Shown piece after piece: positions 863 to 58,607 of a stretch of DNA of 64,000 nucleotides (position 1 is the stretch's first letter; every line of letters starts with the position of its first letter). This DNA is from Coralliovum pocilloporae (GTDB lineage: Bacteria; Pseudomonadota; Alphaproteobacteria; Rhizobiales; Cohaesibacteraceae). The DNA lies in assembly GCF_030845175.1 (NCBI RefSeq), contig NZ_CP132542.1, positions 806,001-870,000 on the forward strand, written 5' to 3'. Position numbers and translations under genes: made by a program. The notes below the pieces were generated by a model that saw nothing but the letters and a program-made list of their open reading frames with translations, did no database searches and had not been told where the DNA came from.

Positions 863-970
863 CTACCGCGTGCTTCTGAAAAATTGATAGACTTTTCAGA
901 TAAAAGCTCGCGCAGAAACAAACTCTTAAAGCAACGCCGCCGATTCAGGTTAACGGTCTTGTGCTTTAAG
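863..970 (-). repeat. Dispersed intergenic repeat, copy A (full length)
   Basis: Reverse-strand copy of a repeat of about 108 bp also found at 40825-40931 and 51594-51700. On the minus strand it starts near CTTAAAGCAC, contains TGCTTTAAGAG and GCGCGAGC, and ends with a hairpin whose arms are CTGAAAA and TTTTCAG, then AAGCACGCGGTAG. It lies between the 3' ends of the peroxiredoxin and the minus-strand gene at 1054-2556. No coding capacity is seen. Confidence 0.85.
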
Positions 971-40824: not shown

Positions 40825-40931
40825 CTTTAAAGCACCAGACCTTTAACCTGAATCGGTGGCGGTGCTTTAAGAGTTTATTTCCGCGCGAGCTTTGATCTGA
40901 AAAGTCTATCAACTTTTCAGAAGCACGCTTT
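40825..40931 (+). repeat. Dispersed intergenic repeat, copy B (full length)
   Basis: Begins CTTTAAAGCACCAGACC, contains GTGCTTTAAGAG and GCGCGAGC, and ends AAGCACGCTTTAG against the rcdA stop codon. An internal hairpin has 9-bp arms CTGAAAAGT (40897-40905) and ACTTTTCAG (40912-40920) around CTATCA. The pair TTAAAGCA / TGCTTTAA forms a second nested symmetry in the first half. Confidence 0.88.
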
Positions 40932-41487
40932 AGTCGGCGTGACGGGCATTCAGAGCACTGGACAGACGGCCCAGCTGATCGGCAACCGGGTTGGCCGACC
41001 CCTCGAATTCGGCCTCATCATCCCGCTCCATAGCTTCTTCAAGCCGCAGAATACGCTCCCGCAGGCGGAATGAACGGTCAATCAGATCTCTCATCATCTC
41101 AGGCAGGTCATCCCAGCCCGGGCTGTCTGATGCACGGCGGGCCGTATCGAGTTTCAGCTTCTGCTTTTCCTGCCGCGCCTGGTCAGATGACATCTCACCT
41201 TCATTAACGGCACGCTGAAGCAACAGCCAGGACGCAAGCTGCATCAGACGGGTGGTCAGGCGCATGGATTCAGTGGCAAATGCAAGAGAACCGGCACGCG
41301 GCAACTGACGCGCCTCCTCCCGACCCGGGCCATCCAGATAACTGGCTGTCTCTTCAACCAGCCCCATACCTTCCCGGAACAACGCCTTGAAATTGTCAGA
41401 CTGGGCCAGTTTCCGTCCAAAAATGATTGGATCGGCCTTCAGCTGTTGCCGTTGTCCACGTCCGCCTGTCTTCATACCATCTGTCAT
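40930..41487 (-). CDS. rcdA: Cell-cycle proteolysis adaptor RcdA (DUF1465)
   Basis: A protein of about 185 residues, mostly helical. The blocks DNFKALFREGMGLVEETASYLDGPGR, FATESMRLTTRLMQLASWLLLQRAV and LIDRSFRLRERILRLEEAM belong to the DUF1465 family. Its Caulobacter member RcdA helps ClpXP degrade CtrA and other cell-cycle proteins, together with CpdR and PopA. The start is unclear: ATGs at 41487 and 41493 share a GGGAAA-like site, and a longer frame reaches 41523. It is encoded next to rpmE, as in related genomes. Its 3' end abuts dispersed repeat copy B. Confidence 0.82.
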   Translation of the reverse strand: MTDGMKTGGRGQRQQLKADPIIFGRKLAQSDNFKALFREGMGLVEETASYLDGPGREEARQLPRAGSLAFATESMRLTTRLMQLASWLLLQRAVNEGEMSSDQARQEKQKLKLDTARRASDSPGWDDLPEMMRDLIDRSFRLRERILRLEEAMERDDEAEFEGSANPVADQLGRLSSALNARHAD

Positions 41488-41523: not shown

Positions 41524-42021
41524 TCGAGAACCTGATAGTCTGTTACAATAGTCTTCTGCGTCCCATTTCGGTACATCATCCGCGGGACGAAGGATCTAAA
41601 CATTAGTGTGAGCAAAACACATGCCACAGTTCTGAAACCCGCCATGGCATGAGCATGAATGACATCATAACCGGCAAGCAGACAGAAAAAAAGAGCCGCG
41701 CAAAGCGGCTCTCAGGAGTTAACAGGGAGGCGTCAAACAGAGTGGACAGGAGCCACTCAGAAATCCAGATAACTGGATATGTTTAGTAAACACTCGTAAA
41801 GCTTAACAATTGGTTAACAGATCAAATAAAATGCATATCACTACTGTGCATTAGTCTGGAAAACAGGGATTACGATTCACTAAGACATGCGCCGGAGCGC
41901 AAGTCATACTAAAATCTGAATTTTTGTTAAGCATTTGCCTTCCTGAATACGTAAGGCATATTGACACACATCCATTGAGACGCAATTCAGCATCACGAAA
42001 GCCTTGGGGTTTAGACATATT
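41524..42021. other. Long intergenic region between rcdA and the quinone oxidoreductase gene
   Basis: No convincing protein gene. It contains a minus-strand terminator (41686-41716) with no annotated gene ahead of it, and an AT-rich stretch (about 41770-41850). It must also hold the promoters of rcdA (minus) and of the oxidoreductase (plus). A small untranslated RNA ending at the terminator is possible. Confidence 0.4.
41686..41716 (-). terminator. Orphan Rho-independent terminator
   Basis: On the minus strand GAGAGCCGC and GCGGCTC pair around a 4-base loop, followed by seven Ts. No gene upstream on the same strand ends here, which points to a small RNA or an attenuated leader of rcdA. Confidence 0.75.
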
Positions 42022-43976: not shown

Positions 43977-43986
43977 TATCAAGGCT

Positions 43987-44023
43987 CTACAGCGTGCTTC
44001 TGAAAAGTTGACAGGCTTTTCAG
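43987..44023 (-). repeat. Dispersed intergenic repeat, partial copy C
   Basis: Only the hairpin end of the repeat family is present: on the minus strand CTGAAAAGC, a short loop, ACTTTTCAG, then AAGCACGCTGTAG. The first 70 bases of the full element are absent. Confidence 0.75.
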
Positions 44024-44047
44024 AAGCCACTGTCACGGACCAATCAA

Positions 44048-51180: not shown

Positions 51181-51408
51181 GTGCAGGTACTCGTTCGCGA
51201 CAATAATGTCGATCAGGCTCTTAAAGCCCTTAAGAAGAAGATGCAGCGTGAAGGCATCTTCCGTGAAATGAAGCTGCGTAACCATTACGAAAAGCCGTCG
51301 GAAAAGAAAGCTCGCGAAAGCGCTGAAGCCGTCCGTCGTGCCCGTAAGCTTGCTCGCAAGCGCGCACAGCGTGAAGGCCTGCTGCCATCAAAAGGCCGCC
51401 GCCGCTAA
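51181..51408 (+). CDS. rpsU: 30S ribosomal protein S21
   Basis: A 75-residue basic ribosomal protein that starts with [46 protein letters not shown] matches the family. A Lys/Arg-rich tail ends the protein. An AGGA site precedes the start. Its terminator forms the left copy of a 63-bp direct repeat (51412-51474). Confidence 0.97.
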
Positions 51409-51411
51409 GAC

Positions 51412-51474
51412 TGTCTCAGTCTTCCAAAAGTTTTAGGCACGCATGACATGTCATGCGTGCTTTTTGTGTTTGTG
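51412..51474 (+). repeat. Direct repeat, left copy, containing the rpsU terminator
   Basis: A 63-base block from TGTCTCAGTC to TTTGTG. The same block recurs at 55941-56003 with 4 mismatches (offsets 3, 9, 38 and 39). Weaker similarity continues for about 20 bases after it (GTTCTGGTGGAGTTGGGA against GCTCTGGCGAAGTGGGAG). The two copies frame gntR-dctPQM. Confidence 0.9.
51437..51470 (+). terminator. rpsU terminator
   Basis: GCACGCATGACA and TGTCATGCGTGC abut as a perfect palindrome and fold into a stem of about 10 bp with a small loop, followed by TTTTTGTGTTTG. Confidence 0.93.
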
Positions 51475-51593
51475 AGCCTCGTTCTGGTGGAGTTGGGAAG
51501 TCTACGCTTGAATCTGAAGGCTTTCTGCAGATGTCCGCCGCGCCAGACAGAAAACTCCCTCCGCAGAACTGACCGAGTTTATGGGCTTAAACC

Positions 51594-51700
51594 CTAAAGT
51601 ATCAGACCTTTAACTTGAATTGGCAGCGATGCTCTAAGAGTTTGTTTCTGCGCGAGCTTCTATCTGAAAAGTCTATCAACTTTTCAGAAGCACGCTGTAG
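51594..51700 (+). repeat. Dispersed intergenic repeat, copy D (full length)
   Basis: Begins CTAAAGTATCAGACCTTTAA, contains GCTCTAAGAGTTTGTTTC and GCGCGAGC, has the same hairpin CTGAAAAGT / ACTTTTCAG, and ends AAGCACGCTGTAG. It lies inside the accessory interval between rpsU and gntR. Confidence 0.88.
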
Positions 51701-51757
51701 TCGGATTATCCAGCACTTGAAGGTGTTTGCAGTGCCTGCGCACTCGCAAGACCGGGA

Positions 51758-52450
51758 TCACCTCGCCCTCGCTACCAGCTGATATCCAGGTTTAGCAATT
51801 GCCCGGACCATAGTAATCGGAGCATCATTGATCCAGGTGGTTCGCTCAATAACAAACAAAGCCTCCTCCACATCAGATGCCAAGAGCTCGGCTTCTTGAC
51901 GCGTTGCTCTTTTGGCAAGGAAACGAACTTCACAATCGCTGTAGGGGCGATTCCGGATAAGCCACTCATTGGCGCTTTCGCGGCTCAGGTCAACATCCAG
52001 AACTTCCGGCGTGGTCGCATGGACAATCCATCTGTCCTCAAAAATATAAGGTTGCTTGTCGGCCATATGCAGCGCCTGAACGTGAAGCATCTCGGTGGGC
52101 TCGGCAAGACCGAACGCAGACGCAATGCGCGGCGGGGAAACACGAATGTCCCGAGAGACCAGGAAGTAACTGTAATCTTTCCCGGCGGCTTCGATTTCCA
52201 GACGCGTGATCGGGATATCAAATGTGGTGCGCGTGATCGGATGCAACGTGACCGTTGTTCCACCCTTGCGGCGACGATCAACCGTGCCGCTTTGGGCGAG
52301 GTCCAGCATGGCCCTCTGAACGGTGGTTCGAGAGCATTGGAATTCCTCCGCAAGCTCCTGATCATTCGGGAGCTTTGCACCCGGTAGTAACTCACGATCC
52401 AGAACACGTCGCTTTATCTCGTCTCGTATGGCTATCCAGTTACTGTTCAT
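51758..52450 (-). CDS. GntR-family (HutC subfamily) transcriptional regulator
   Basis: A protein of 230 residues. The winged helix at the N-terminus shows WIAIRDEIKRRVLDRELLPGAKLPNDQELAEEFQCSRTTVQRAMLDL, followed by a UTRA ligand-binding domain (about residues 85-228) with DIPITRLEIEAAG, LHVQALHMADKQPYIFEDRWI and FVIERTTWINDAPITMVRAIAKPGYQLVAR. It is divergent from a TRAP transporter operon, so it most likely represses that operon until the transported acid or a product binds. The start at ATG 52450 is a choice; a GTG eight codons earlier is possible. Confidence 0.9.
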   Translation of the reverse strand: MNSNWIAIRDEIKRRVLDRELLPGAKLPNDQELAEEFQCSRTTVQRAMLDLAQSGTVDRRRKGGTTVTLHPITRTTFDIPITRLEIEAAGKDYSYFLVSRDIRVSPPRIASAFGLAEPTEMLHVQALHMADKQPYIFEDRWIVHATTPEVLDVDLSRESANEWLIRNRPYSDCEVRFLAKRATRQEAELLASDVEEALFVIERTTWINDAPITMVRAIAKPGYQLVARAR

Positions 52451-52537
52451 TCCCGGACCCTTTGGTTTTAGCACCTGAACAATGTTGCTGTGTCTGGACG
52501 ACCAGCGAGCCAGATACGACTGGCTTCCAGAATTAGA

Positions 52538-52612
52538 TTGACTCTCATATTATGTGCATGCTTAAAAAAATATGGCAACAGCTTATAATGAGCTGCATGT
52601 TGGGAGGAAACC
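52538..52612 (+). promoter_or_regulatory. dctPQM promoter region with inverted repeat over the -10 box
   Basis: A perfect TATAAT (52584-52589) lies inside the inverted repeat CAGCT-N7-AGCTG (52579-52595), a likely operator for the divergent GntR protein. The -35 partner at the right distance is weak (near 52561). Another possible start uses TTGACT at 52538-52543. A GGGAGG ribosome site at 52602 serves dctP. Confidence 0.45.
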
Positions 52613-53698
52613 ATGAAACGCAGAGATTTTGTGAAAGCAGGAGTATTTGGGGTCGCGGCAACATCGTTGGCGGCTCCTGCTGTCGCTAAGGATGTTCGGC
52701 AATGGAACATGGTCACAGCTTGGCCGAAAAATCTGCCTGGCCCAGGAGTTGCCGCACAGATGCTGGCGGACCGGATCACGACCTTGTCGGGTGGGCGGCT
52801 TCAGGTGAAGCTCCACGCTGCGGGAGAGCTTGTACCCGGCCGGGGCGTCTTCGACGCCGTATCCGAAGGCACAGCAGAACTATATCACGCTGTTCCAGCC
52901 TATTGGGGCTCCAAATCCAAGGGTATCCTGCTGTTCGGATCACAGCCTTTCGGCTTGCGGGCAGATGAGCAGTTTGGCTGGCTCTATCACGGTGGCGGGC
53001 AGGCTTTGTATGACGAAATCTATGCACGCTTTAATCTCAAGCCGTTTCTCTGTGGCAATTCAGGCCCTCAATGGCAGGGCTGGTTCCGAAATGAGATCAA
53101 GTCGCTTGATGATCTGAAGGGTCTCAAATTCCGCACAACAGGTCTCGCATCACAGATGTGCTCAAAAATCGGGATGGCCGTACAGGCGATGGGTCCGCGC
53201 GATATGTTCCAGGGCCTGCAAACAGGCGCCTTAGACGCGGGCGAATTCATCGGTCCCTGGACTGACAGCGCCATCGGGTTCCAGCAAGTCGCCAAGAACT
53301 ACTATTGGCCAGGGGTGGGTGAGCCGTCTTCAGCTGAGGAATGCGCCATCAATGCCACTGCCTATGCAGAACTGCCTGACGACCTGAAACAGGCGGTCAG
53401 CTTTGCCTGTGAAAGCCTCTACAACCCGGTCTGGACAGAATACACCACCAAGCACGCACAGGCCCTAGCGCGTCTGGTGGCAGAAGAGGGTGTTCAGGTA
53501 CGCACTTTGCCCGCTGACGTTATTGCAGCAATGGGCGCGGCATCTGTCGAAATTATGGACGAGCTGTCACAGGACGAAGACGAGCTGGTACGTCGGATTA
53601 CCCAAAGCTTCCTGACTTATCGCGATGCTGTCGGCTCATACATGAGCTATGCAGACAACGGTCAGATGAACGCACGCGCAGGCGTTCTGGGATACTGA
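52613..53698 (+). CDS. dctP: TRAP transporter substrate-binding protein (TakP/FcbT1-like)
   Basis: A 361-residue periplasmic binding protein. It starts MKRRDFVKAGVFGVAATSLAAPAVAKD, a twin-arginine-type signal. The body resembles TakP and the mannitol/chloroaromatic TRAP group: AGELVPGRGVFDAVSEGTAELYHAVPAYW, LKFRTTGLASQMCSKIGMAVQAMGPRDMFQGLQTGALDAGEFIGPWTD, and NYYWPGVGEPSSAEECAINATAYAELP. The Arg in LKFRTTG is the usual carboxylate ligand, so an organic acid such as a 2-oxoacid is the likely cargo. The dctQ and dctM genes follow. Confidence 0.92.
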   Translation: MKRRDFVKAGVFGVAATSLAAPAVAKDVRQWNMVTAWPKNLPGPGVAAQMLADRITTLSGGRLQVKLHAAGELVPGRGVFDAVSEGTAELYHAVPAYWGSKSKGILLFGSQPFGLRADEQFGWLYHGGGQALYDEIYARFNLKPFLCGNSGPQWQGWFRNEIKSLDDLKGLKFRTTGLASQMCSKIGMAVQAMGPRDMFQGLQTGALDAGEFIGPWTDSAIGFQQVAKNYYWPGVGEPSSAEECAINATAYAELPDDLKQAVSFACESLYNPVWTEYTTKHAQALARLVAEEGVQVRTLPADVIAAMGAASVEIMDELSQDEDELVRRITQSFLTYRDAVGSYMSYADNGQMNARAGVLGY

Positions 53699-53755
53699 TA
53701 TTTGACGTTGCTCACCGGTGGGTGATTAGCCCGCCGGTGGCACATTGAGGCCAGA

Positions 53756-54256
53756 GTGCAGCAGTTAATCAAAGCATTGGACGGCTTTAGTCGTACAGTC
53801 GGGTCAGCCATACGGTGGCTGGCCCTGGCTATGGTACTGGTTCAATTCTTCATCGTTGTGGCCCGTTACGTCTTCGGGTTCAGCGATGTCGCGATCAATG
53901 AATCCGTCCTTTATATGCATGCAACCCTGTTCATGCTGGGCGCCGGATACACTTTGCTGGTCGGTGGTCATGTGCGCGTGGATATCTTCTACAACAGGCT
54001 GGGTGATGCTGGCCGACGCCGTATTGATCTGTTTGGCCACCTCGTACTGCTGATGCCGACAATGGTGGCCATTCTCTATTGGTCCTGGCCAGCCGTAGCG
54101 AATTCCTGGAGCATTCTGGAGGGGCCGCTCTCAGTGGGTGGTATCAAGGCCGTTTTCCTCCTGAAAACGCTCATTCCCGCCTTTTGCGGCCTTCTGTTGC
54201 TACAATCAGCAGCCGAAGTGCTGCGCCTTCTGATTGGAGACCAGGCGCGTGATTGA
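53756..54256 (+). CDS. dctQ: TRAP transporter small membrane subunit
   Basis: A 166-residue four-helix membrane protein. Helices lie at about residues 18-38, 52-70, 93-113 and 136-155. The conserved MLGAGYTLLVGGHVRVDIFYNRL is the family block after helix 2. It starts with GTG and ends in an 8-base overlap with dctM. With DctM it forms the sodium-coupled permease. Confidence 0.9.
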   Translation: MQQLIKALDGFSRTVGSAIRWLALAMVLVQFFIVVARYVFGFSDVAINESVLYMHATLFMLGAGYTLLVGGHVRVDIFYNRLGDAGRRRIDLFGHLVLLMPTMVAILYWSWPAVANSWSILEGPLSVGGIKAVFLLKTLIPAFCGLLLLQSAAEVLRLLIGDQARD

Positions 54257-55799
54257 ATATCTTGATCTCCTGATGTTCGCGGTGCTGATGGTGGCCATCT
54301 TGTCCGGCTTTCCAGTCGCGTTCAGCATCGCCGGAACCGCTATTCTGTTCGCTTTTTTGGGATGGTTTTTAGGGGTGATGAATATCTCCCTGCTGGGGGC
54401 CATGTCACAACGCATTTTCGGCCTTTTGACCAATGGCGTGCTGATCGCCATCCCGCTTTTCGTGCTGATGGGCGCGGTGCTGGAAAAAAGCCGGATCGCT
54501 GAGGATATGCTGGAAACAATGGGGCGATCATTCGGCAACCTGCGCGGTGGACTTGGTCTTTCCGTTGTTCTGGTGGGTATGCTGCTGGCGGCGTCAACGG
54601 GAATTGTCGGCGCGACGGTGATCGCTATGGGGCTGATTGCCCTACCCACCATGTTGCGCGCGGGTTATGATTCCCGACTGGCTGCGGGTATCGTCTGCGC
54701 CTCTGGTACGCTGGGCCAGATTATACCGCCATCGACCTTGCTGATTATTCTGTCTGATGTGGTGTCAAACGCCTATCAGCAGGCCCAGTACGAGCAGGGC
54801 AAGTTTGCGATAGATACGATCTCCGTGGGTCAGATTTTTGCAGCCGCCTTACTGCCCGGACTAACAATGGTGGTTCTCTACATTCTCTACATTCTGGTCC
54901 GTGGCGTCATTCGGCCCGGAGACCTGCCGGTTGTGGAGAGCTCCGAAGCTCATTTGTCTCTGTCAAAAGCGCTGCCAGCCATTCTTCCAGCGATCCTGCT
55001 GATTCTGGCTGTTCTCGGCGCGATCCTGAGTGGCATCGCCTCCCCCACCGAGGCTGCATCGGTTGGCGGACTTGGCGCGATCCTGATGGCGGCGATCAAA
55101 ACCGGACAGTTCCGGAAAACCATGTTTCTGGGAACCACCAGCCTTGTATTGCTGGCCATAGGTGCAGGCCTCTATCCTGTTCGTCTGCAACGCAGCGACC
55201 TGGAGGTGTTCGACTATGTCATAGGCGCCGGATATGTGATGCTCAGCCTGTTCGGGGCAATCGCCATATGGCTCGCAATCCGCTCATTGATCCGCCGGAA
55301 CACCTTGCAGCCTGCGCTAAACGCGACCGTCTCAATGACATCCATGATCTTCAGCACCATCCTGGCAGCAGGTATCTTCTCACTGGTGTTCATCGGTCTG
55401 GGCGGAGAAGAACGCGTGCACAGCCTGCTGACCGATCTGCCCGGCGGCCCCACAGGGGCTTTGCTGTTTTGCATGCTGTTTATCTTTGTACTCGGCTTTT
55501 TCCTGGACTTCGTCGAAATCACAGTGATCGTCCTGCCACTGGTCATGCCCACGCTGATCTTGATGGGACATGATCCAGTGTGGCTGTCGGTGTTGATCGC
55601 CATCAACCTGCAAACCTCTTTCCTCACCCCGCCGTTTGGATTTTCCCTGTTCTACCTGCGTGGGGTCGCGCCAAAAGAGATCAGCACCGGACAAATCTAT
55701 GCGGGGGTGGCTCCGTTCATTCTCATCCAGATCGTCGCTGTCGCAATTATCTGGTTCCTGCCACAAATCGCCACTCTGTTGCCGGATCTGCTTTTCTAA
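54249..55799 (+). CDS. dctM: TRAP transporter large permease subunit (extended type)
   Basis: A 516-residue sodium-symport permease. LLMFAVLMVAILSGFPVAFSIAGTAILFA begins the first half; ASTGIVGATVIAMGLIALPTMLRAGY and ASGTLGQIIPPSTLLIILSDV form the ion and substrate cradle, mirrored in LLFCMLFIFVLGFFLDFVEITVIVLPLVMP and NLQTSFLTPPFGFSLFYLRG. At over 500 residues it is longer than classical DctM of about 430, because of extra helices in the centre (about residues 260-370). That matches the TakM/FcbT3 type. The GTG at 54249 overlaps the dctQ stop. Confidence 0.93.
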   Translation: MIEYLDLLMFAVLMVAILSGFPVAFSIAGTAILFAFLGWFLGVMNISLLGAMSQRIFGLLTNGVLIAIPLFVLMGAVLEKSRIAEDMLETMGRSFGNLRGGLGLSVVLVGMLLAASTGIVGATVIAMGLIALPTMLRAGYDSRLAAGIVCASGTLGQIIPPSTLLIILSDVVSNAYQQAQYEQGKFAIDTISVGQIFAAALLPGLTMVVLYILYILVRGVIRPGDLPVVESSEAHLSLSKALPAILPAILLILAVLGAILSGIASPTEAASVGGLGAILMAAIKTGQFRKTMFLGTTSLVLLAIGAGLYPVRLQRSDLEVFDYVIGAGYVMLSLFGAIAIWLAIRSLIRRNTLQPALNATVSMTSMIFSTILAAGIFSLVFIGLGGEERVHSLLTDLPGGPTGALLFCMLFIFVLGFFLDFVEITVIVLPLVMPTLILMGHDPVWLSVLIAINLQTSFLTPPFGFSLFYLRGVAPKEISTGQIYAGVAPFILIQIVAVAIIWFLPQIATLLPDLLF

Positions 55800-55940
55800 A
55801 CCCGGGCAAATGATATCTGACCAGCCGGAACAAACCCCAGACACCAGCGCCCTGTATCGTCACCGGCAGTCCAAATGAAACCGGTTTGGCAGTTTGTTTG
55901 ATTGGGCCAGCTCTGGTCAAAAGGCCACCGCTGCCAAGAA

Positions 55941-56003
55941 TGCCTCAGCCTTCCAAAAGTTTTAGGCACGCATGACACTTCATGCGTGCTTTTTGTGTTT
56001 GTG
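55941..56003 (+). repeat. Direct repeat, right copy
   Basis: From TGCCTCAGCC to TTTGTG, 59 of 63 bases identical to 51412-51474. It lies 141 bases after dctM and is not associated with a ribosomal protein gene here. Confidence 0.9.
55966..56000 (+). terminator. Second copy of the rpsU-type terminator, now behind dctM
   Basis: GCACGCATGA (55966-55975), loop CACT, TCATGCGTGC (55980-55989), then TTTTTGTG. The two changes from the left copy fall in the loop, leaving the stem intact, so it should still terminate, now for dctPQM. Confidence 0.88.
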
Positions 56004-56171: not shown

Positions 56172-56912
56172 TCACGTTGCGGGAGATTGCTGATTCAATT
56201 CAAACAGAGGGTTACCATCGAAGTGTATATTCACCAACATTGATGCAGCGACAATGATGGTCACCCCAATGCCGCTTAAGGCTTCAGATCCAGTCGGCTC
56301 CAACGGCAAGTGGATTTCTCCCGCCTCACCTGTTTCGATATTGCTTTCAGGAGGCCCAAACGTCACATAACGTGCCGCTGACTCGAGGATCTCTTCTTGC
56401 TTCTCCCTAGATGGATCTAGATGTGCTCCACCCAGCTTGTTGCATGCAAACCGAAGAATCCTTTCCATTGAGAAATCTTCGCCTTGGAAGTGAAGTACAC
56501 GGCGGTTCATCATTTTGCTTCGCTTAACCAGCTCAATTCGTTGAGAGCTTAGTTCGTGAATCCAATTTGGCGGTTTGTCGGCATTTGAATGGTAAAGCAT
56601 CCATATTGGCGTTCCATCGAATCGGACACCAGCTGAGAGGTAGTAGTCGATGTCGGGATCATCTATTGCCCTCTCAAAGAGACTAGTGTCGTTAAGCATC
56701 GGAAAAGTGACGGGCACCCGAATTTGGTTGGTGATGCGACGCAATTCGTTGTCGCAAAGCCAGCGTCGAACGATAACGGAGGCTTGCCTGATATGGCGGT
56801 TTTGCACCGGACCATTGGGAAATGTAAGTTCGATCAGGCTTCTGACGTCGTCTTCGAAAAGGTTCGTGAGTTCGAGAAATTCTGCCTCCGAAATCGGTTC
56901 TGGTTTCGGCAT
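56172..56912 (-). CDS. Unrecognised protein in the accessory interval
   Basis: A 246-residue soluble protein with no family I recognise. The N-terminal third is helical and charged (EAEFLELTNLFEDDVRSLIELTF, RHIRQASVIVRRWLCDNELRRI). A middle part is strand-rich (YYLSAGVRFDGTPIWMLYHSN). The blocks HFQGEDFSMERILRFACNKLGGAHLDP and GVTIIVAASMLVNIHF follow. No signal peptide; the hydrophobic stretch near the C-terminus is short. The start MPKPEPISEAEF is preceded by GGGAAAG; a longer frame adds 40 residues rich in Cys and Arg that look untranslated. Base composition is visibly richer in A and T than that of neighbouring core genes, which suggests transfer. Confidence 0.6.
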   Translation of the reverse strand: MPKPEPISEAEFLELTNLFEDDVRSLIELTFPNGPVQNRHIRQASVIVRRWLCDNELRRITNQIRVPVTFPMLNDTSLFERAIDDPDIDYYLSAGVRFDGTPIWMLYHSNADKPPNWIHELSSQRIELVKRSKMMNRRVLHFQGEDFSMERILRFACNKLGGAHLDPSREKQEEILESAARYVTFGPPESNIETGEAGEIHLPLEPTGSEALSGIGVTIIVAASMLVNIHFDGNPLFELNQQSPAT

Positions 56913-57155
56913 ATTGTCTTTCCCGTCTTTTTGCTCATTGAGATCATCAACGAAGATATAGAGTTGGTGCGGACGTTTGTGCAAGCGGGGCGAACGACTG
57001 CTTTGTCGGCATATCCGACATTCCCATCCCAAATATCTTTAGCTTCACAATCAGCCACTATGCTCGCAATCTGACCACGATCTAATAAGAACCGTTCGCA
57101 ACACGGCACGCATACAACAAAATGCCACCCCGACGTCTCAATGCACCACGAACGA

Positions 57156-57209: not shown

Positions 57210-58607
57210 TCAGTCCATGCCTTTGACGATGTCCTCGACCATTTTCTTGGCGTCGGCGAACAGCATCATGGTGTTGTCCTTGAAGAACAGCTCGTTCTGA
57301 ATGCCTGCATAGCCGGAGCCCATGCCGCGTTTGACGAAGAGGCAGGTGCCTGCCTTGTCCACATCCAGAATAGGCATACCGAAGATCGGTGACTGCGGGT
57401 CATCACGAGCCGCCGGGTTTGTCACGTCATTGGCACCAATAACAAAGGCCACATCAGCCTGGGCAAACTCGGAGTTGATATCCTCAAGCTCGAACACCTC
57501 GTCATAGGAGACGTTGGCTTCAGCCAGAAGAACGTTCATATGACCAGGCATACGACCGGCAACCGGATGGATGGCATATTTGACTTCAACACCTTCCGCC
57601 TTCAGCAGGTCGCCCATCTCACGCAGGGCATGCTGGGCCTGGGCAACCGCCATGCCATAACCCGGCACGATGATAACCTTTGACGCGTTCTTCATGATGA
57701 AGGCCGCATCATCCGCAGAACCCTGCTTAACCGTACGGTCATCATCTCCGCCACCGGCTACAGCAGTCTCACCACCGAAACCGCCAAGGATCACCGAGAT
57801 GAAGGAGCGGTTCATGCCCTTACACATGATGTAGCTGAGGATAGCACCGGACGAGCCCACAAGCGCACCCGTGATAATCAGTGCCGTATTGCCCAGCGTA
57901 AAGCCGATACCAGCCGCAGCCCAACCGGAATAGGAGTTGAGCATGGAGACCACCACCGGCATATCAGCGCCGCCAATCGGGATAATGATCAGAACACCTA
58001 GAACCAGAGAGGCAATGACGATCAGCCAGAACAGGGTATGGCTTTCCGTGGCACAGAACACGATGACCATGATAACCAGCGCCGCGGCCAGACCACCATT
58101 GATCACATGACGGGCCGGAAGAATAATCGGCTTGCCCGACATCCGTCCATCAAGCTTGAGGAAGGCAATAACCGACCCTGTAAAGGTGATCGCACCGATA
58201 GCCACGCCCAGCGACATCTCAACAAGACTGGCTGCTGAAATCGTGCCAATGGACCCGATACCAAACGACGATGGCGCATAAAGCGCAGCGGCTGCGACCA
58301 TCACAGCGGCCAGACCTACCAGCGAATGGAAGGCCGCCACAAGCTGTGGCATTGCCGTCATCTCGATACGGCGGGCAATAACAGCACCGGCACCGCCACC
58401 GATGCCAAGTCCGAGCAGGATCAGAAGCCAGCCCTGGCCTGATGGTGCTGCGACCAGCAACGTGGTGATGATGGCAATGGCCATACCGGCCATACCGTAA
58501 TAGTTCCCCTGACGGGATGTCTCGGGATGAGACAGGCCACGCAGAGACAGAATGAAGAAGACGCCCGAAACTACATAGAGAAGGGCTGCAATACTTGCTG
58601 ACATCAT
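57210..58607 (-). CDS. pntB: NAD(P) transhydrogenase subunit beta
   Basis: A 465-residue subunit of the proton-pumping transhydrogenase. Up to nine membrane helices fill the first 260 residues (domain II), and the NADP(H)-binding domain III follows (about 285-465) with VIIVPGYGMAVAQAQHALREM, HPVAGRMPGHMNVLLAEANVSYDEVFELEDIN and VIGANDVTNPAARDDPQSPIFGMPIL. It couples proton flow to NADPH formation from NADH. Last gene of pntAA-pntAB-pntB, starting 6 bases after pntAB. Confidence 0.97.
   Translation of the reverse strand: MMSASIAALLYVVSGVFFILSLRGLSHPETSRQGNYYGMAGMAIAIITTLLVAAPSGQGWLLILLGLGIGGGAGAVIARRIEMTAMPQLVAAFHSLVGLAAVMVAAAALYAPSSFGIGSIGTISAASLVEMSLGVAIGAITFTGSVIAFLKLDGRMSGKPIILPARHVINGGLAAALVIMVIVFCATESHTLFWLIVIASLVLGVLIIIPIGGADMPVVVSMLNSYSGWAAAGIGFTLGNTALIITGALVGSSGAILSYIMCKGMNRSFISVILGGFGGETAVAGGGDDDRTVKQGSADDAAFIMKNASKVIIVPGYGMAVAQAQHALREMGDLLKAEGVEVKYAIHPVAGRMPGHMNVLLAEANVSYDEVFELEDINSEFAQADVAFVIGANDVTNPAARDDPQSPIFGMPILDVDKAGTCLFVKRGMGSGYAGIQNELFFKDNTMMLFADAKKMVEDIVKGMD

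Follow-up and report, generated by a model that had tools for sequence, protein, structure and literature searches.

Downstream of rpsU (ribosomal protein S21), the 64,000-nucleotide stretch of the Coralliovum pocilloporae genome that we analysed (the window) carries a four-gene cassette, gntR-dctPQM, enclosed by two direct copies of the rpsU 3' end (Table 1). With a probability of roughly 0.7, a figure that leaves aside the route by which the DNA arrived, we read this arrangement as an old, horizontally acquired insertion into the rpsU-pntB intergenic region, with a HutC-type regulator and a TRAP importer as its cargo. Copy 1 of the rpsU tail would complete and terminate rpsU, and the hairpin of copy 2 would have been kept as the terminator of dctPQM. 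An earlier note on this DNA had placed gntR, dctP, dctQ, dctM and one copy of a dispersed repeat between the two copies. This content was confirmed, with gntR in reverse and dctP, dctQ and dctM in forward orientation, as was its statement that no integrase or transposase lies there.

Table 1. Features of the rpsU-pntB interval (positions in the window)
Feature	Position	Strand	Remarks
rpsU (ribosomal protein S21)	51181..51408	+	intact, 75 aa
Repeat copy 1: last six rpsU codons, stop and intrinsic terminator	51388..51474	+	
rpsU terminator hairpin	51435..51462	+	12 pairs, 4-nt loop; -25.8 kcal/mol, z -4.3
Dispersed hairpin repeat copy, ~106 bp	51595..51700	+	between copy 1 and the gntR end
gntR: HutC-type histidine-utilisation repressor	51758..52474	-	Pfam GntR, UTRA; TIGR02018 HutC
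dctP: TRAP substrate-binding protein, hut-associated subfamily	52613..53698	+	
dctQ: TRAP small permease	53756..54256	+	
dctM: TRAP large permease	54234..55799	+	longest ORF; true start probably slightly downstream
Repeat copy 2: decayed rpsU tail (stop lost) and intact terminator	55917..56003	+	
Hairpin 3' of dctM	55964..55991	+	copy 1 stem, two loop changes; -22.4 kcal/mol, z -3.3
pntB, ancestral convergent neighbour of rpsU	57210..58607	-	

The direct repeat at the end of rpsU

The earlier note had compared a 63-bp block (51412-51474 against 55941-56003), and its count of 59 identical bases was reproduced. When the alignment was made without preset borders, the full repeat measured 87 bp at 90.8% identity, a match whose E value is ~3e-31 for a search of the 11.9 kb downstream and 9.5e-29 for the whole genome. 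The description of the block as a terminator repeat stood in part: the terminator does lie inside it, but so do the last six codons and the stop of rpsU, which come first and are followed by a short spacer and then by the intrinsic terminator. The left boundary of the repeat is sharp and falls inside rpsU (p = 0.86 for similarity in the 70 bp of left flank), and to the right of the terminator the similarity is only marginal (p ~0.02-0.03).

The rpsU end is intact in copy 1 (TCAAAAGGCCGCCGCCGCTAA). Its counterpart in copy 2 (TCAAAAGGCCACCGCTGCCAA) has 3 of 21 coding bases changed, all by transition, resulting in two amino-acid substitutions and the loss of the stop. Over the first 43 bases of the repeat the copies differ at six positions; the hairpin stem and T tract are identical in both, and the two differences within the hairpin fall in its four-base loop. 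Copy 2 is probably an rpsU tail that was freed from its coding role and now likely serves as the terminator of dctPQM. An assembly artefact was ruled out, since the copies are 9% divergent and lie in different flanking sequence.

A search of the whole chromosome (3,918,007 bp) returned only these two direct copies of the block, thus ruling out that it belongs to a common terminator family. The block was absent from all 19 further family genomes and all 384 further class genomes included in the search. That copy 2 is the remnant of a second, tandem rpsU gene is very improbable: some genomes of the order do have two or three rpsU genes, but no further rpsU-like sequence precedes the copy 2 codons, in the DNA or in its three reading frames, and none of the relatives read (119 loci) has a second rpsU tail at this place.

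The dispersed repeat of ~106 bp has further copies in the window at 40828-40937 and 863-969 (reverse) and a partial one at 43986-44024. It forms strong hairpins (..CTTTAAAGCACC...GGTGCTTTAAGAG.. and CTGAAAAGTC...ACTTTTCAG) and is present in the genome in at least 40 copies, about 86-93% identical to each other; outside this genome, weak partial matches were seen in one family member and none in 39 others. Judged by these matches, it is a genome-specific REP/BIME- or MITE-like family. The window also contains the alphaproteobacterial sRNA BjrC1505 (RF02356) at 41686-41823 (-), which scores 91.9 bits with a gathering score of 50.

The rpsU-pntB interval and the route of entry

We compared the window with 119 rpsU loci from related genomes outside the genus, each with 1 kb or more of downstream sequence (1.41 Mb in total). 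In relatives, purE-purK-rpsU faces pntB-pntA2-pntA1; the convergent rpsU/pntB pair is present in 53 of the 119 loci, all within the bacterial order, with gaps from 1,082 bp and a median of 2,387 bp. From this comparison, the convergent order of purK-rpsU and pntAB is ancestral. GntR, DctP and DctM proteins like those of the window are absent from all 119 loci, as is the rpsU-tail repeat, for which only chance matches of 18-38 bp were found. Exact removal of one 4,529-bp unit leaves an rpsU-pntB gap of 1,273 bp, inside the range of the relatives. The cassette-free convergent pairs and the normal gap so restored point to entry of the cassette into an ancestral rpsU/pntB pair.

The insertion at rpsU-pntB that the earlier note had suggested is thus well supported by the ancestral order and by the absence of cassette and tail repeat from the 119 loci. 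Neither of the two circumstances that the note had set against it holds: relatives lack gntR-dctPQM at this place, and the block forms no genome-wide terminator family. As expected of an island, the cassette is missing from the same place in relatives (outside the genus, at these loci) and has direct repeats at both ends, one of which completes rpsU. The insertion does not appear recent, as suggested by the divergence of the two copies over their first 43 bases and by a normal base composition. The GC content of the cassette (54-56%) is the same as that of the window, and composition is therefore of no help in finding the donor. A PurK-based scan of genome contigs yielded no close relative, the best PurK identity being 58-60%.

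Between copy 2 and pntB lies an ORF of 286 aa (56172-57032, -) of lower GC (49%). Apart from a weak hit in PHROG (E 0.0023) it has no match, Pfam, NCBIfam and PADLOC included, and those relatives whose rpsU loci were read for gene order have no homologue of it there.

As to the route, we tentatively favour, at somewhat less than even odds, a recombinase-driven integration: a circular element would have integrated at the rpsU 3' end, leaving two direct copies of the 87-bp sequence, and the recombinase gene would later have been lost, leaving a CIME-like remnant. The four genes fill the 4.4 kb between the repeats, where no integrase, relaxase, transposase or leftover of such a gene was found; the cassette has neither the integrase of its own that marks an IME, ICE or prophage nor the relaxase that an IME or ICE would also have.

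Exactly the same structure is predicted by a Campbell-type event, in which circular or duplicated DNA with an rpsU tail and terminator beside gntR-dctPQM entered by a single crossover with the resident rpsU tail and no dedicated integrase was ever involved. The lack of an integrase in or near the cassette, and of any other use of the site, fits such an event, but it requires a donor that carried the cassette and an rpsU tail side by side beforehand. Neither the loci that we read nor the class sample contained such a donor, and ~90 bp is short for homologous recombination; we consider this event rather unlikely. Alternatively, the rpsU tail and its terminator may have been copied locally, either as the cassette arrived or earlier. 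Illegitimate recombination, template switching or the filling-in of a staggered break could have produced the copy, and copy 2 would then have been kept as the terminator of dctPQM. This would agree with a block that stops almost exactly where the terminator ends, with a hairpin stem that is its best-conserved part and with a repeat unique to this genome. However, duplication and insertion would have to coincide, and the genome encodes no Ku protein, which makes end joining at a staggered break less likely and so weakens that origin; on balance, local duplication seems doubtful.

The earlier note had proposed that the rpsU terminator would be an unrecognised landing site. As a general landing site rpsU is not supported: no other repeat was found at the site, an integrase was found in 1 of the 119 loci (~8 kb off), the four Phage_integrase matches of the C. 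pocilloporae genome, at least two of them Xer-like, do not lie near rpsU, and no viral contig matched the repeat core exactly, or the hairpin with its loop left free. The sole integrase-bearing locus, L233 from genome G044, has no rpsU-tail repeat; its two integrase-like ORFs lie at about 8.2-8.7 and 12.7-13.3 kb of the locus, ~8 and 12 kb downstream of rpsU. No related mobile element sharing the putative att sites was found in the loci, genome or viral contigs searched. That the rpsU 3' end and terminator form the att site of an undescribed alphaproteobacterial integrase or element, with the cassette as its decayed remnant, is in our estimate improbable.

The HutC regulator and TRAP importer as cargo

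The cassette regulator combines GntR and UTRA domains with a score above the TIGR02018 HutC equivalog cut-off (224.7 bits against 220), as a HutC protein should, and is 52% identical to the HutC of Marinovum. Its gene is divergent from dctPQM, in which the DctP, DctQ and DctM subunits of a TRAP importer are encoded in one operon. Most loci that we read for this DctP subfamily (~70-83% identity) lie in or beside hutF/hutIHGU, usually directly after hutU, and in Marinovum a DctP of the subfamily is found on a plasmid together with hut genes. The four genes also stand alone, on plasmids of Ruegeria sp. TM1040, Leisingera thetidis, Pseudosulfitobacter and Tritonibacter, with neighbours that differ among the plasmids where annotated. 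On the Pseudosulfitobacter plasmid pSMR1-1, gntR-dctPQM (L194 12923-17781) adjoins IS66 and IS701 transposases and a site-specific integrase.

The hut cluster of C. pocilloporae itself lies at 1.086-1.094 Mb, about 0.23 Mb from the TRAP genes of the window, and has a different HutC and no dctPQM. In this cluster (hutU-G-H-I, hutF, hutC; L196, G000:C1:1078000-1097000) the dctPQM that follows hutU in relatives is lacking, and a cyclic-nucleotide-binding/patatin-like ORF sits in its place. The GntR tree sets the window protein, together with the Roseobacter modules, apart from the HutC of the own hut cluster by a split with 100% support; the sister of the window protein is supported at 41-47 only. 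The DctPQM tree gives the window a long branch and a sister that is not a single lineage. Most simply, the importer would have arrived as a module of its own and would now work for the resident hut pathway. Its substrate is most likely histidine or urocanate, as judged from the neighbouring genes; DctP also shows clear sequence similarity to TRAP binding proteins of solved structure, among them SmoM and a ketoacid-binding protein, so that the assignment rests on gene neighbourhood.

Significance and related systems

The case is instructive yet fairly ordinary: such insertions are known, and here no moving machinery is left. It suggests that the importer of a substrate can be lost from its catabolic operon and supplied again at another place, as a module of regulator and TRAP genes, and it presents what would be a ready-made terminator borrowed from a core gene. 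Should the rpsU 3' end truly be an attachment site, one more ribosomal-protein gene would join the known list, which would help to find islands missed by tRNA-based tools.

IMEs are known to target the 3' ends of the ribosomal-protein genes rpsI, rplL, rpmE and rpmG (PMC5704250); given these known targets, the cassette would be at most a further case of a known type. Like these elements, it sits where a small ribosomal-protein gene ends, and that 3' end is restored on insertion; unlike them, it concerns rpsU and an alphaproteobacterial host and has no integrase or relaxase. No paper in the literature searched names rpsU as an integrase site. In Francisella an island lies between rpsU and glmS, for which the part of the source available to us describes no att sites (PMC4230796).

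Gene fragments that islands have displaced serve as standard markers of island ends (PMC4383910), and a CIME (cis-mobilizable element) is defined as an att-flanked element, bounded by direct repeats, from which integration and transfer genes are missing; elements that lost their integrase are known (PMC5704250). The cassette resembles a CIME in its direct-repeat flanks, one of which is the 3' end of its target gene, and in carrying no integration or transfer genes. It differs in that no ICE or IME with matching att sites is known here, and its excision or mobilisation would be hypothetical.

The Roseobacter plasmid modules consist of the same four genes in the same divergent layout (DctP 76-79% and GntR 52-56% identical). 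Unlike the cassette, they are plasmid-borne, have other neighbours and lack long flanking direct repeats, none of which was found at the five stand-alone modules examined (four plasmids and one further genome, G055). From the hut operons with TRAP genes (hutF, hutIHGU-dctPQM) the cassette differs in that its TRAP genes stand apart from the hut enzymes, and with them it shares the DctPQM subfamily and a HutC regulator.
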